Shown piece after piece: positions 14,065 to 21,421 of a DNA stretch of 64,000 nucleotides (positions are counted from its first letter, which is position 1; every line of letters begins with the position of its first letter). The notes under the pieces are model-generated. The model was not told where the DNA came from, searched no databases, and saw only the letters and a program-made list of their open reading frames with translations. The position numbers and the translations under genes were made by a program. This stretch comes from Cyclobacteriaceae bacterium (lineage in GTDB: Bacteria; Bacteroidota; Bacteroidia; Cytophagales; Cyclobacteriaceae), in contig JANQPQ010000050.1 of the NCBI GenBank assembly GCA_028285445.1, forward strand, positions 62,001 through 126,000, given 5' to 3'.

Positions 14065-16521
14065 CTACTCCGAGATATAAATCCGTTTTACCCTTTCACT
14101 TACTTTGGTCAAAATCTCATAAGGTATAGTACCAATATCGTGGGCTAGTTTTGAAATGCTTGGATCCTCTCCGAACACAACCACTTCATCTCCAACTTCT
14201 GCCGCAATATTGGTGATATCTAACATGGTCATATCCATACACACTTCTCCTACAACCGGCGCTCGTTGGTCGTTTATTAACATTGCCCCTACTCCTTTTC
14301 CAAAACCTCTATCATAGCCGTCTGCATACCCAATCGGTACCGTGGCTAACACCATATCATCAGTGGCCTTTCCTGCTCTGCCATAGCCTATAGTTTCACC
14401 TTTGGCAATTTTTCTAATCTGTGAGATGGACGTTCGTAACCTGCTTATCGGGATCAGCGAATCTGCAAAGTTTTGACTTGATTCGATCCCATACAGGCCT
14501 ATGCCCAATCTTACCATTTCAAAATGGTACTCAGGGTACCTGAGAATTCCTGCGGAATTAACAACATGGCGAACAGGTGCATAATCAAGATGCTTACAAA
14601 TTTCTTCATATCCACTTTTGAATTTTGCTACTTGTTGCCTGGTAAATTCATCATGAATCTCAGATTCTTGTGCCGCCAAATGGGTAAAAACAGTAGCCAC
14701 TTCCAAGCTCGCATTATTGGCAATAATCGTCATGGCCTCGGTTAATTCATCAACATTAAAACCCAAGCGGTGCATGCCGGTGTCAACTTTCAGGTGAATA
14801 CGGAATTTGGAATCTGTGTCTTTGGTAAATACATCAATCTCTTGTAGCAATTCCAGGCTAAACACTTCTGGCTCCAACTGATTTTCAACAAGCTTGGCCA
14901 GGCTCTCCTGGCTGGTATTCATTACCATAATTGGCAGATGTATGCCTCCTTCCCTCAGTGCCACACCTTCATCGGGGTAGGCGACTGCCAGGTAATTGAC
15001 CCTATGGAATTGCAGTAGGTTTGCAATCTCTTGCGAGCCGCTGCCATAAGCAAAAGCTTTAACCATGGCCATGAGGCTGGTTCCCTCATTAAGCCTTGAT
15101 TTATAAAAGTTCAGGTTGTGGGTTAACGCATCAAGGCTAATCTCCAGCACAGTATCATGTACCTTTCTTTGCAGCAGATCAGTTATCTTCTCGAACTCAA
15201 ATACCCTTGCTCCCTTAATAAGTACCACTTCATTGTTAAACTGCAATGAACGATCTGCCAGGAATTGATCCACATCCTTGTAGTATTTTGCGGGAAGATC
15301 AAACTGTTTCTTATTTCGACTAATCTCCGGCCCAATGCCAATTAGTCGATCTATGCCTTTCTTGGCCAGTAAATCATTTACGTTTTGATACAGCTCTGAT
15401 TCGGATAAGCCAGCTTGGAGAATATCAGAAAGAATTACTGTTTTCTTATCTCTTATCTTTTGCTGGTTCAAAAAACTTATCGCAATCCTTAATCCTGCTA
15501 TATCATTATTATAGGAATCGTCTATTAAATAGCAACCATAGTTTGCCTCCTTCAACTCCAACCGCATCTTCACTGGCGTAAGTCTGGAAAGGCGTTGTTG
15601 AACCTCATAAGCACCAAAGCCACTAATTAGCATATAACAGATACCATGCATTAGATTTTCGATTGAGGCTTCATCACCAAACTTTGTAGTTAACAAGAAT
15701 TGTTCTCCCCCATGCTCTAATTGAAGTAAATGCTTGCCATTATTGCTATCAATAGAGTGCAGTACCAAGTCCGCTGGCTCAGATTTAGACCAGCAGAATG
15801 ACTTTGGCTTAGAAAGTGCCTGAAGAGATTGTCCTACCTCTTTGTGATCTTTGCAGTAGATCACTGTTTCGCAATCTTTGAAAAGTATTGCTTTTTCCTT
15901 CGCCTTCTCACTGCGGCTTTTAAATCCTTCGTTATGTGCGGTTCCGAGATTGGTGAAGATACCGATCTCCGGACTAATCATCGATTGGAGCTTAGCCATT
16001 TCCCCGGGCTTGGATATACCAGCCTCAATAATTGCAAGCTGATGGTTTTCCTGAATTTGCCATAACGACAATGCCACGCCAAGTTGGGAATTGTAGCTTT
16101 TAGGGCTTCTAATGATATCGAAATCTGAGCATAGCAGCTGGTAAAGCCACTCCTTAACCACTGTTTTACCATTACTACCTGTTATGCCTATTACTTTCGC
16201 AGTATGCTGCTTTCGATGGCTTTCTGCCAGTTGCTGCAGAGCCGTAAGTGTGTTGTCAACTTGAATAACATTGGCTTTCTTATCCTTGAGCCAGGAAAAG
16301 TCATCAACCTGCTCGATAACGAATTGCTCCACCCCCAAATCCCACAGCTCCTTAACGTAATTATGGCCATCATGTCTGTCTCCTTTGATAGCAAAAAATA
16401 CGGATGCCTTACTTACTACTGGTTTCCGGCTATCGGTTACCAAATACTCAATTGGGTTGTTTTTCGCGATGCTGAAAATACGACCACCAATAATCTTCGC
16501 CAGCTCTTCAAAATAAATCAT
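14065..16521 (-). CDS. murF-alr: bifunctional UDP-MurNAc-tripeptide:D-Ala-D-Ala ligase / alanine racemase
   Basis: An 818-residue fusion. The N-terminal half (about 1-450) is MurF, which adds D-Ala-D-Ala to UDP-MurNAc-tripeptide in the cytoplasm: VTDSRKP entry motif, P-loop GITGSNGKT, and the SYNND ligase motif. The C-terminal half (about 455-818) is alanine racemase: PLP lysine in MVKAFAYG, GIGLYG and catalytic-Tyr motif GYADGYDRG. It therefore makes D-Ala and builds the peptidoglycan precursor in one chain. The fusion is well known in Bacteroidota. It is last in an operon csaA - GNAT - murF/alr with 5-base spacers. Confidence 0.95.
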   Translation of the reverse strand: MIYFEELAKIIGGRIFSIAKNNPIEYLVTDSRKPVVSKASVFFAIKGDRHDGHNYVKELWDLGVEQFVIEQVDDFSWLKDKKANVIQVDNTLTALQQLAESHRKQHTAKVIGITGSNGKTVVKEWLYQLLCSDFDIIRSPKSYNSQLGVALSLWQIQENHQLAIIEAGISKPGEMAKLQSMISPEIGIFTNLGTAHNEGFKSRSEKAKEKAILFKDCETVIYCKDHKEVGQSLQALSKPKSFCWSKSEPADLVLHSIDSNNGKHLLQLEHGGEQFLLTTKFGDEASIENLMHGICYMLISGFGAYEVQQRLSRLTPVKMRLELKEANYGCYLIDDSYNNDIAGLRIAISFLNQQKIRDKKTVILSDILQAGLSESELYQNVNDLLAKKGIDRLIGIGPEISRNKKQFDLPAKYYKDVDQFLADRSLQFNNEVVLIKGARVFEFEKITDLLQRKVHDTVLEISLDALTHNLNFYKSRLNEGTSLMAMVKAFAYGSGSQEIANLLQFHRVNYLAVAYPDEGVALREGGIHLPIMVMNTSQESLAKLVENQLEPEVFSLELLQEIDVFTKDTDSKFRIHLKVDTGMHRLGFNVDELTEAMTIIANNASLEVATVFTHLAAQESEIHDEFTRQQVAKFKSGYEEICKHLDYAPVRHVVNSAGILRYPEYHFEMVRLGIGLYGIESSQNFADSLIPISRLRTSISQIRKIAKGETIGYGRAGKATDDMVLATVPIGYADGYDRGFGKGVGAMLINDQRAPVVGEVCMDMTMLDITNIAAEVGDEVVVFGEDPSISKLAHDIGTIPYEILTKVSERVKRIYISE

Positions 16522-18260: not shown

Positions 18261-18320
18261 CACCCCTTTCAAACTAAATTCTCACCTCTCAAGCAAGTAT
18301 TAAACGTTTTGTAACCCATG

Positions 18321-18337
18321 ATGCAACGTTGTTGCAT
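18321..18337. promoter_or_regulatory. palindromic operator candidate before the TonB receptor
   Basis: ATGCAAC, a 3-base spacer GTT, then GTTGCAT: a perfect 7-base inverted repeat. It lies 7 bases upstream of a TAACTTTG element and 20 bases upstream of the receptor ATG, the position expected for a repressor. Symmetry and location resemble Fur/Zur-family boxes, but the regulator is not identified here. Confidence 0.55.
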
Positions 18338-18344
18338 AATTGCT

Positions 18345-18352
18345 TAACTTTG
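18345..18352 (+). promoter_or_regulatory. TAnnTTTG -7 element of the TonB receptor gene
   Basis: TAACTTTG matches the Bacteroidota -7 consensus exactly. Only five bases separate it from the ATG at 18358, so the transcript would be leaderless or nearly so. No convincing -33 TTG at normal spacing; the palindrome occupies that region. Confidence 0.55.
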
Positions 18353-18357
18353 CAGTT

Positions 18358-20748
18358 ATGACTAGGCTTTCGGTCATATTGATTCTCGCCTCTTCTTCCC
18401 TTACCAAGCCTTCCCTGGCTCAGGATTGTCAATTCCGGCTATACGGAACAATTAGTGATGGGGAAAAGCAAATTTTGCCTGGTGCAACTGTTATGATTAG
18501 AGAACTTGGCAAAGGTGTTGTTGCTAACGAAAAGGGAAATTTTGAATTTACTGGCCTCTGCCCCGGCAACTATACAATAGTTGCATCCTTTGTTGGCTAC
18601 CAGCAACTTGAGCAAACAATAGCACTGAATTCCTCTCAGGAAATCAACCCAGAGCTAGTTGAAGACGATCTAATACTTGGTGACGTTACGGTTGAAGGCG
18701 AGCGGCAGAAATTCGATAATTCAGCAATCGCCAGCACGCTTAGCCATGAAGACCTTGAAGGTGTCCAAACCAGAACTTTGGGAGAAATTCTGAGCCAGGT
18801 TGCAGGCGTTAGCACACTGCAGACTGGACCAACGATATTCAAACCTGTAATTCACGGCATGCACAGCCATCGCCTTATGATCCTCAATAATGGTATTAAC
18901 ATTGAGGGACAGCAATGGGGAATAGAACATGCGCCGGAAATTGATCCGTTTATAGCTTCCGAAATAAGTGTAATTAAAGGAGCAGCCGCCGTTAGATATG
19001 GAGCTGATGCTATTGGTGGTGTGGTGGTTATCGACCCACCTTCAATTCACAGTACTGAATCATTTGGCGGAGAACTTAACCTCGGCTATATGACTAACGG
19101 TAGTGTCGGGATTACATCACTAACAGTTGAAAATGGCACTGAAAGTGGTTTAGGATGGCGCCTTCAGGGCACCATTAAGCGAGGTGGTGATTTCCAAACT
19201 CCCAACTACAATCTGACCAACACCGGGGTAAAGGAATACAACTTCACCGGGGCCATTGGATGGGAAGAGGAGAACAAAGGATTAGAGTTGTATGTAAGTA
19301 GTTTTAACAGTGAGCTTGGAATATTGAGAGGCGCCCATATCGGAAACCTCACTGACCTTGCGGAAGCCATAGGTAGAACTGAACCATTTTTTATTGAAGA
19401 TTTTTCGTATGACATCAATAACCCCCGGCAGCAAGTAAGCCATCACCTGCTAAAGTTTAAAGCTTTTGCCGACGCAGGCAATTTAGGGAGAGTTACAGCT
19501 CAATATGGCTTCCAGTACAATCAGCGAAAAGAGTTTGATGTGAGGAGGGCTGGCCGCAGCGGCTTGCCGGCCTTGTCTCTTGAGTTAATAACCAATTCCT
19601 TAGATGTTTCACTAGATCACCAATTAGATGCCAATATGGTTGGGGCTTTAGGCATCAGCGGATCATTTAAGGACAATGAGAATGTGCCAGGCACCGGCAT
19701 TAGGCCAATAATACCTGACTACGAACGTGGAACTATCGGGGTTTACCTTGTTGAAAAATACGTTACCGGTAACTGGAGCCTTGATGCTGGGTTGAGGTTT
19801 GATCATCAAACACTGAACGTATTTACCTTCGACGCACAAAATGATCTAATTAAGCCTGGCTTTAGTTTTAACAATATTTCGGCAAGTTTGGGAGGTGACC
19901 TGATAGTCTCAGATCGCGTTACGTTAAGTACCAATATTGGTCGATCTGTTAGGCCGCCTCACCCATTTGAACTTTTCAGTCAAGGCCTGCATACTGGTAC
20001 TGGATCTATTGAGGAAGGATTACTAATCGATGGAGGCCAGGTTGCTGCCATTCCAAGTAGTGGCAATATTCGCAGCGAGGAATCATGGAAATGGTCCTCG
20101 ACACTGAAAGTAAATACCAATAAGGTGCACATTGATCTTACTACCTACTATAATCTCATTGATAATTTTGTATTCCTTAGCCCAAAAGAAACCAGGCTTA
20201 CTATAAGAGGAGCATTTCCGGTTTTCCAATACTCTCAAACTGATGCGGTGTTTACAGGTGTTGATTTTGAGTTTGATATGGACCTGACGGAAAAGCTAAG
20301 TTTACATAGCCACTCCAGCCTAATATGGGCAAAGGACCAAACACGAGATAGCTACCTGACTTTCATTCCTGCTCAGACCTTTGATAACTCTCTGGATTAT
20401 GATCTAGGGGAGGTGGGAAAATTCAAAAATATTGAAGTCTCGTTATCGCTATTGAATGTACTACAACAAAACCGAGCTCCAAGGGTGGTTCCGATCTCGG
20501 AACTTGAAACTAGCACTTCGAATGATGTGTTCGATTTTATTCCTGCACCCGAGGGCTACAATCTGGTGAACTTAGATTTTGGTTTTAAAGTACCAGCATT
20601 CAAAGATAAGGAGTTGAGTTTTAGGATGGGGATAGAGAATATATTCAATACATCCTACAGGGATTACATGAATCGTCTGAAATACTATGCCGACGATATC
20701 GGCAGAAATTTTTCGTTCAGTCTAAAATATGATTTTCACGCTCACTAA
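18358..20748 (+). CDS. TonB-dependent outer membrane receptor (ZnuD/metal type)
   Basis: About 796 residues from the ATG at 18358; an upstream TTG at 18340 would fall inside the promoter. A signal peptide ends near SLAQ. Residues about 25-110 are a carboxypeptidase-regulatory-like beta-sandwich (PGATVMIRELGKGVVANEKG). The plug (about 125-220) contains PVIHGMHSHRLMILNNG, EGQQWGIEHAPEIDPF and AAAVRYGADAIGG; the rest is a 22-strand barrel ending YDFHAH. The His-rich plug motif HGMHSH resembles ZnuD-like receptors, suggesting zinc or another metal complex as cargo (inference). The partner lipoprotein follows after 39 bases and a terminator closes the unit. Confidence 0.88.
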   Translation: MTRLSVILILASSSLTKPSLAQDCQFRLYGTISDGEKQILPGATVMIRELGKGVVANEKGNFEFTGLCPGNYTIVASFVGYQQLEQTIALNSSQEINPELVEDDLILGDVTVEGERQKFDNSAIASTLSHEDLEGVQTRTLGEILSQVAGVSTLQTGPTIFKPVIHGMHSHRLMILNNGINIEGQQWGIEHAPEIDPFIASEISVIKGAAAVRYGADAIGGVVVIDPPSIHSTESFGGELNLGYMTNGSVGITSLTVENGTESGLGWRLQGTIKRGGDFQTPNYNLTNTGVKEYNFTGAIGWEEENKGLELYVSSFNSELGILRGAHIGNLTDLAEAIGRTEPFFIEDFSYDINNPRQQVSHHLLKFKAFADAGNLGRVTAQYGFQYNQRKEFDVRRAGRSGLPALSLELITNSLDVSLDHQLDANMVGALGISGSFKDNENVPGTGIRPIIPDYERGTIGVYLVEKYVTGNWSLDAGLRFDHQTLNVFTFDAQNDLIKPGFSFNNISASLGGDLIVSDRVTLSTNIGRSVRPPHPFELFSQGLHTGTGSIEEGLLIDGGQVAAIPSSGNIRSEESWKWSSTLKVNTNKVHIDLTTYYNLIDNFVFLSPKETRLTIRGAFPVFQYSQTDAVFTGVDFEFDMDLTEKLSLHSHSSLIWAKDQTRDSYLTFIPAQTFDNSLDYDLGEVGKFKNIEVSLSLLNVLQQNRAPRVVPISELETSTSNDVFDFIPAPEGYNLVNLDFGFKVPAFKDKELSFRMGIENIFNTSYRDYMNRLKYYADDIGRNFSFSLKYDFHAH

Positions 20749-20787: not shown

Positions 20788-21369
20788 ATGAAACCTTTGA
20801 AAAACCTTTTTTATTGCCTTTCACTACTTGCAACAATGTTGCTTGTAGTTAGTTGTGATGATGATGATCCGGATCCAGAGAATCCGGAGGAATTGATTAC
20901 AACAGTAAACATTACCTTAACCCCAACTGGTACCGGTGGTACTGTAGTAACATGGAGTTTTGTCGATCTAGATGGAGAGGGTGGTAACGCGCCAACCATA
21001 ACGGCACCAGCTCTGGCTGCTGGAACTACCTACAACGCTGCGATCGAACTCTTGAATGAGTCTGAAACTCCTGCTGAGGATATTACTGCGGAAGTGTCTG
21101 GCGAGGCGTTGGATCACCAGTTCTTCTTTACAGGAACTGCAATCACAAATCAACTGGTAAGCTTAACCTACGACGACGAAGATTCTGAGAGTAATCCTAT
21201 TGGCCTCAAATTCATTTTAACTACCGGCCAGACCGGAGGAACAGGCACGTTGACTGTTACTCTTCGTCACGAGCCAGACAAGAATGCAACAGGCGTATCT
21301 AGTGGAGATATTACCAATGCTGGTGGCGAAACCGATATTGAGGTCGATTTCGACGTAGTAGTCCAGTAA
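20788..21369 (+). CDS. lipoprotein partner of the TonB receptor
   Basis: About 193 residues from the ATG at 20788, chosen because it starts a clean lipoprotein signal (MKPLKNLFY..., lipobox VVSC) while the ATG at 20758 adds ten unrelated residues. After Cys comes an Asp/Glu/Pro linker (CDDDDPDPENPEE) and a beta-rich domain with the conserved pieces DGEGGNAPTI, DHQFFF, and at the end TLRHEPDKNATGV and SGDITNAGGETD. I recognise this as a Bacteroidota lipoprotein family usually encoded next to TonB receptors and often labelled type 1 periplasmic-binding-fold; its function is unproven. His and acidic residues could bind metal. Confidence 0.7.
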   Translation: MKPLKNLFYCLSLLATMLLVVSCDDDDPDPENPEELITTVNITLTPTGTGGTVVTWSFVDLDGEGGNAPTITAPALAAGTTYNAAIELLNESETPAEDITAEVSGEALDHQFFFTGTAITNQLVSLTYDDEDSESNPIGLKFILTTGQTGGTGTLTVTLRHEPDKNATGVSSGDITNAGGETDIEVDFDVVVQ

Positions 21370-21393: not shown

Positions 21394-21421
21394 ATAGGGA
21401 GTCCTCGGGCTCCCTATTGTT
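21394..21421 (+). terminator. intrinsic terminator of the TonB receptor operon
   Basis: ATAGGGAG (21394-21401) and CTCCCTAT (21410-21417) form a perfect 8-bp stem with an 8-base loop, followed on the plus strand by TGTTTT. It overlaps the last codon of hisA on the other strand; the minus side lacks a T-run, so it works for the plus-strand lipoprotein gene. Confidence 0.7.

Follow-up and report, generated by a model that had tools for sequence, protein, structure and literature searches.

A predicted Zur operator before a ZnuD-like receptor and a lipoprotein of an unnamed family in Bacteroidota

A perfect palindrome directly upstream of a TonB-dependent receptor gene in a Cyclobacteriaceae genome raises two questions: which regulator reads it, and what do the genes behind it import? 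A sequence-only reading of this locus had proposed a two-gene metal (perhaps zinc) uptake unit under a Fur/Zur-type repressor. We followed up this proposal in the whole stretch of DNA that was read (64,000 nucleotides, C28:62001-126000 of our genome G000, hereafter the window), in the genome it belongs to (5.48 Mb in 57 contigs) and in relatives. The recurrence of the motif, the Zur-like genes found near it and a consensus predicted in Desulfovibrio all support the proposal. On sequence grounds, the palindrome is very probably a Zur operator placed before a ZnuD-like zinc receptor and a lipoprotein of an unnamed family.

The palindrome ATGCAACGTTGTTGCAT (ATGCAAC-GTT-GTTGCAT) is an exact match to the pattern ATGCAAC-N3-GTTGCAT at positions 18321-18337, with no strand of its own; no other site in the window matches with fewer than two mismatches. 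A larger dyad surrounds it at 18312-18346 (16-nt arms, 81% complementary). The -7 promoter consensus of Bacteroidota is TAnnTTTG, and an element of this type, TAACTTTG, stands on the plus strand at 18345-18352, 7 bases after the end of the palindrome. The receptor ATG follows at 18358, 20 bases from the palindrome. The order of palindrome, promoter element and start codon is thus exactly as first read. The further claim that the palindrome lies between promoter elements is half supported: the -7 element is clear, and no clear -33 element was found. The ATG comes only five bases after the -7 box (18345-18358), which suggests a nearly leaderless mRNA.

The receptor gene (18358-20748, plus strand) encodes 796 aa, with an N-terminal carboxypeptidase-regulatory-like domain. 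The lipoprotein gene follows on the same strand at 20788-21369 and encodes 193 aa from its likely start, or 203 aa from 20758. After both genes lies a terminator-like hairpin (21394-21417, plus strand), an inverted repeat with 11-nt arms, 91% complementary, and TTGTTTT at its end. It agrees with the terminator proposed after the lipoprotein but is missing from the list of our terminator scan, because its loop of 2 is under the scan minimum of 3. A possible second, imperfect operator, TTGCAACAATGTTGCTT, occupies 20828-20844 without strand and with 2 mismatches, within the codons of the lipoprotein signal peptide, and may be there by chance. A similar internal site is found at +35 of an Imperialibacter homologue of the lipoprotein (L221), and the box stands immediately before the lipoprotein gene in three relatives (L104, L115, L117). 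Elsewhere in the window, an 818-aa ORF (14065-16521) resembles a MurF-alanine racemase fusion.

The first reading had named the absence of the motif before metal genes of the genome as a reason to drop it, and the motif withstood this test. Its exact form is present at three genomic positions, where the nucleotide frequencies of the window, taken together with those of five loci of this genome, would predict 0.023 by chance, and its reversed control does not occur. Allowing one mismatch brings the count to six sites (three exact, three with one mismatch), which fall in five promoter regions of metal-related-looking operons. At two mismatches there are 17 sites in the genome versus 11 for the control, and at up to three mismatches 6 in the window versus 3.7 by chance; with such near-control rates, weak matches therefore say little alone and the extra sites are mostly noise.

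Besides the window site, a tandem pair (C9:52578/52613) separates two divergent operons, one with MerC, DUF6660 and TonB receptor genes, the other with an ABC ATPase, an FtsX permease and a weakly DUF3299-like protein, whose DUF3299 match is below the cut-off (E = 0.025) and for which no PDB match was found. Another site precedes genes for an M19 dipeptidase, DUF6702 and HupE/UreJ, with a 400-aa ORF divergent from it. The next stands before a small Cys/His protein, a TonB receptor, HmuY, CobN, a family-less ORF, ExbB and DUF2149, and the last before a small Cys protein, two periplasmic-binding-protein-like genes (one of them weak) and FecCD. At three of the six, the mechanically called ORF begins within or before the box, so these gene starts are provisional. 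None of the targets that had been named (znuABC, ribosomal paralogues and zur) was seen among the genes under the box in this genome; the genome's own zur-like gene has no site listed in the motif scan.

The HmuY/CobN/ExbB operon, which has a one-mismatch box (L019 10416-19144 and L004 1-5738, G000 C9), is of a kind commonly labelled as haem uptake but possibly serves zinc. At two places in the genome (L019:10416-10802 and L020:9294-9680), metal-receptor or metal-transport genes are preceded by a small protein that carries (L)RGPP close to its C-terminus; neither protein has a Pfam family over the cut-off.

The box also recurs before homologues of the receptor and lipoprotein in other genomes. 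Among 98 genomes (this one and 97 relatives), 28 carry the exact motif, at 50 sites, and none the reversed control; in a wider sample of the phylum, the figures are 11 and 2 of 296 genomes. We then considered 80 loci chosen by the lipoprotein with the motif ignored, the best 80 of at least 555 relatives, of which 79 were analysed (L227, with no plus-strand lipoprotein ORF, was left out). The exact core TGCAACNNNGTTGCA stands upstream of the lipoprotein or receptor gene in 25 of the 79 loci and a core with at most one mismatch in 39, whereas 118 permuted palindromes, sought in the same stretches, were found in 0.08 loci on average and 3 at most. A stricter first count (receptor before lipoprotein, full upstream stretch, core with up to two mismatches) had given 5/27 loci versus 0/27 for the control; the recount covers the DNA upstream of both genes because the lipoprotein comes first in many loci. 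At the level of whole genomes, the lipoprotein is about as common with the exact motif (21/28) as without it (50/70, p = 0.81).

The box is unevenly distributed: going by record titles, it is present in 1 of 24 Flavobacteriaceae loci and in 38 of the 55 others, the remaining 17 of which include some cut by contig ends. Upstream of 22 Flavobacteriaceae receptors we found no other shared palindrome, the best being common to 4/22, and a box with at most one mismatch occurs nowhere in these 22 loci. In 18 of the 22, a short ORF whose product has GPP (mostly RGPP) close to its C-terminus stands upstream of the receptor.

Under our distance rule, which includes divergent neighbours and leaves 5 of 47 exact sites in relatives without a gene, 58 proteins encoded beside the box were collected, among them 2 CobW proteins, 2 GTP cyclohydrolases I, 5 MerC, 5 ABC ATPases and 4 TonB receptors. 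The cyclohydrolases are of type I (PF01227), a different type from FolE2, and therefore weigh less. GalE and SAM synthetase, clearly not zinc genes, are also among the neighbours. Of the 58 proteins, which come from loci L088-L131, seven match thioredoxin-reductase models, a class one would not expect next to a Zur box. A review counts COG0523/CobW proteins and FolE2 among the targets of Zur (PMC6103462).

The position of the box relative to the promoter is also constrained. The 143 loci yielded 162 sites that depart from the motif by no more than one base, or 160 distinct sites as L133 and L158 come from the same genome. Counted from the start of the core, TAnnTTTG begins at -6, +21 to +25 or +32/+33 at 83 of the 160, compared with 1, 5 and 4 sites for three scrambled patterns in the same registers, which were chosen after viewing the data and of which -6 shares two of its six letters with the motif itself. 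These registers suggest a repressor that would either cover the -7 element or sit upstream of it. The window site would be of the upstream kind, with its -7 element at +23 from the core start, inside the +21 to +25 peak. Where copies lie in tandem, 27-28 or 38-39 bp is the most frequent spacing, accounting for 18 of the 30 pairs under 80 bp.

Which protein might read the box? A search with the Pfam FUR family found two genes in the genome, C14:1816, which is Fur-like, and C28:52286. The latter (C28:52286-52696) lies about 9.3 kb before the start of the window and encodes a Zur-like protein of 137 aa that scores over the Pfam FUR cut-off. Its best NCBIfam model is Zur, far below that model's cut-off (36 of 167 bits), and its best PDB hits are tied between PerR (5.6e-6) and E. 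coli Zur (7.8e-6). Genes near the sites in the 143 loci were labelled by their best phmmer matches to 24 queries from our genome only, one of which has a weak DUF3299 label. All 28 Fur-family genes found in these loci score closer to the Zur-like protein than to the Fur of our genome. Of these, 25 are no more than 5 kb from a site and 7 no more than 250 bp, a closeness not seen in our genome and inflated in the loci because these were chosen for the motif or the lipoprotein. A Zur-like gene shares the strand of the lipoprotein in 14 of the 79 lipoprotein loci; in 9 of the 79, one comes after both lipoprotein and receptor in the same orientation. A homologue of the Zur-like protein is present in 27/28 genomes with the exact motif versus 50/70 without it (one-sided Fisher p = 0.004).

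A box of the same sequence has been predicted before. For two Desulfovibrio genomes, the Zur box upstream of znuABC-zur was predicted as ATGCAACNNNGTTGCAT (Rodionov et al., 2004, PMC545781). The 17-bp consensus is identical, it likewise stands before metal uptake genes, and a Fur-family gene is part of the operon. Desulfovibrio belongs to another phylum, however, and its box precedes znuABC-zur, whereas here the box precedes a TonB receptor and a lipoprotein. This identity and the 28 Zur-like genes fit the proposal of a Fur/Zur-type repressor. Judging from the sequences, the reader of the box is most likely the 137-aa protein of C28:52286-52696.

The receptor contains the TonB Plug and barrel domains of Pfam. 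A profile search of the PDB places ZnuD first with E = 1.3e-37 (the next match has 8.4e-28), and a sequence search also returns ZnuD of Neisseria meningitidis (4rdr) first. With the NCBIfam ZnuD model the score is 89.1 of 950 bits, far under the cut-off, and we therefore call the receptor ZnuD-like rather than ZnuD; its best NCBIfam name is that of a haem family, also under its cut-off. The zinc site of ZnuD is printed as D90, H100, E340 and H499 (PMC4557270); H100 and H499 are two ligands of one site. H191 and H545 of our receptor align with these two. The histidines of PDHA and GKHV in ZnuD fall at chain positions 114 and 513, counted by hand along the printed alignments, a spacing of 399 that H100 and H499 share.

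Among 85 receptors, D or E at position 190, H191 and H362 are conserved in all 85, H545 in 81 and H327 in 74. The conserved acid is beside the H100 position, although the paper prints D90, and E340 falls in an unaligned stretch. Unlike ZnuD, the receptor has an N-terminal regulatory-like domain and a lipoprotein partner, and neither E340 nor the His-rich loops of ZnuD can be mapped onto it. The (D/E)190-H191 pair, H362 and H545 are the conserved candidate ligands. The earlier metal argument had instead been built on a His-rich plug motif, HGMHSH. The motif is present (residues 166-171), but its histidines are found in 45, 34 and 2 of the 85 receptors, and we rejected it as a metal site.

The lipoprotein has a match in 71 of the 98 genomes, our own included. 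The window protein, in which DHQFFF indeed occupies residues 109-114 of the 193 aa, has no Pfam family at E ≤ 0.001 and no PDB relative, and HmuY is not among the 25 Pfam families listed for 57 homologues. AlphaFold2 gives a confident beta-sandwich (pLDDT 90.6). Foldseek found no PDB match to this model at E ≤ 0.001 (best 2.1e-3, TM 0.23), and the best VIA-align match has Z 8.4 (rmsd 3.5, 107 aligned, a nuclear-pore chain), followed by one at 7.9 and many at 5.5-6.7. HmuY is not among the VIA-align matches listed, which excludes nothing. As modelled, the fold would be a common sandwich with no telling neighbour, from which no function can be inferred.

Acidic residues after the lipid cysteine mark surface export in Bacteroidota. 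Of 57 homologues, 55 have at least two D/E among the five positions that follow this cysteine, and the lipoprotein is thus probably surface-exposed. Pairs of a TonB receptor and a surface lipoprotein are familiar in Bacteroidota from HmuR-HmuY, BtuB-BtuG and SusCD. The present pair resembles them in its adjacent genes and in the acidic residues after the lipid cysteine, but differs in that its lipoprotein has no Pfam family, HmuY included, over the cut-off. In an alignment of 23 sequences made free of the pattern of our locus scan (A1), E102, E106, H110, D130, D132 and H161 are invariant in 23/23; in a further alignment (A2), E106, H110 and Q111 were prescribed by the scan pattern, which in part accounts for their invariance there. 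The lipoprotein domain is matched three times in a single open frame of about 560 aa in two genomes (G041 C18:249222-250835 and G058 C21:20467-22101).

Could the box be read by Fur, and the unit import haem or an iron complex? Two of the five motif-bearing promoter regions of our genome lead to operons that resemble haem (HmuY, CobN) or siderophore (FecCD) uptake, and operons of these kinds are more usually Fur-controlled. These HmuY/CobN and FecB/FecCD-like operons both carry the box with one mismatch, and the top NCBIfam name of the receptor, albeit sub-cut-off, is that of a haem receptor. We nevertheless consider a Fur-controlled haem or iron unit improbable, given that the Fur-family genes of the loci are Zur-like in 28/28 cases, that CobW and MerC genes follow the box in relatives, and that its consensus equals the predicted Desulfovibrio box. 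Known Zur-controlled MacB-type clusters hold DUF3299. In Pseudomonas, a MacB-type cluster has been described under Zur, and one is stated for Vibrionaceae (PMC11481552). The genes under the tandem box at C9:52578/52613, for an ABC ATPase, an FtsX permease and a protein weakly similar to DUF3299, resemble this type of cluster (PA4063-PA4066/Zrg), although no ZrgA-like protein was identified here and the DUF3299 match is sub-cut-off. The haem name itself has a precedent, as ZnuD too was initially misannotated as a haem transporter, according to the account given with its structure (PMC4557270).

A Fur-family sensor of nickel, cobalt or manganese would fit the HupE/UreJ, CobN-like and MerC genes among the targets, but it leaves the conservation of the ZnuD ligands and the presence of CobW unaccounted for, and we regard it as very unlikely. 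Least credible of all is a chance or structural (hairpin) feature with no regulator: the motif is short and its weak versions occur near control rates, but the counts and conservation far exceed the controls and the promoter register is fixed. The reading of the palindrome as a Zur operator draws on the site itself, its recurrence and conservation, its promoter register, its linkage to Zur-like and zinc-type genes and the two ligands shared with ZnuD, all apparent at the level of sequence.

We infer that the Zur-like protein of C28:52286 would bind the operator with zinc as co-repressor. When zinc is sufficient, a Zur dimer would sit on the palindrome, beside the -7 element, and block transcription. 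As zinc falls, Zur would release the operator, and receptor and lipoprotein would be made. The lipoprotein would then capture zinc or a zinc complex and pass it to the ZnuD-like receptor. A broader hypothesis, to which we give slightly less than an even chance, is that many Bacteroidota possess an undescribed two-part zinc scavenger. In it, a lipoprotein at the cell surface, from a new family and with invariant H110, H161, E102, E106 and D132, would capture zinc and load it into a ZnuD-like TonB receptor. Zur, acting through a Desulfovibrio-type box, would control this unit and also an operon of the HmuY/CobN chelatase type able to strip zinc from complexes.

Our literature search, which did not extend to RegPrecise, found no Zur box described for Bacteroidota, and the main text of the Zur review has no word beginning with "bacteroid" (PMC6103462). 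A Zur switch is of a known kind; within the literature searched, what is new is its setting in Bacteroidota and the lipoprotein. With the box and its promoter register, zinc regulons of Cytophagales and Saprospiraceae could be predicted. The lipoprotein family, widespread but unnamed, and the CobN/HmuY-like operons commonly termed haem uptake would likewise gain a function to test. Finally, two distant phyla have an identical box, which could reflect transfer or convergence.
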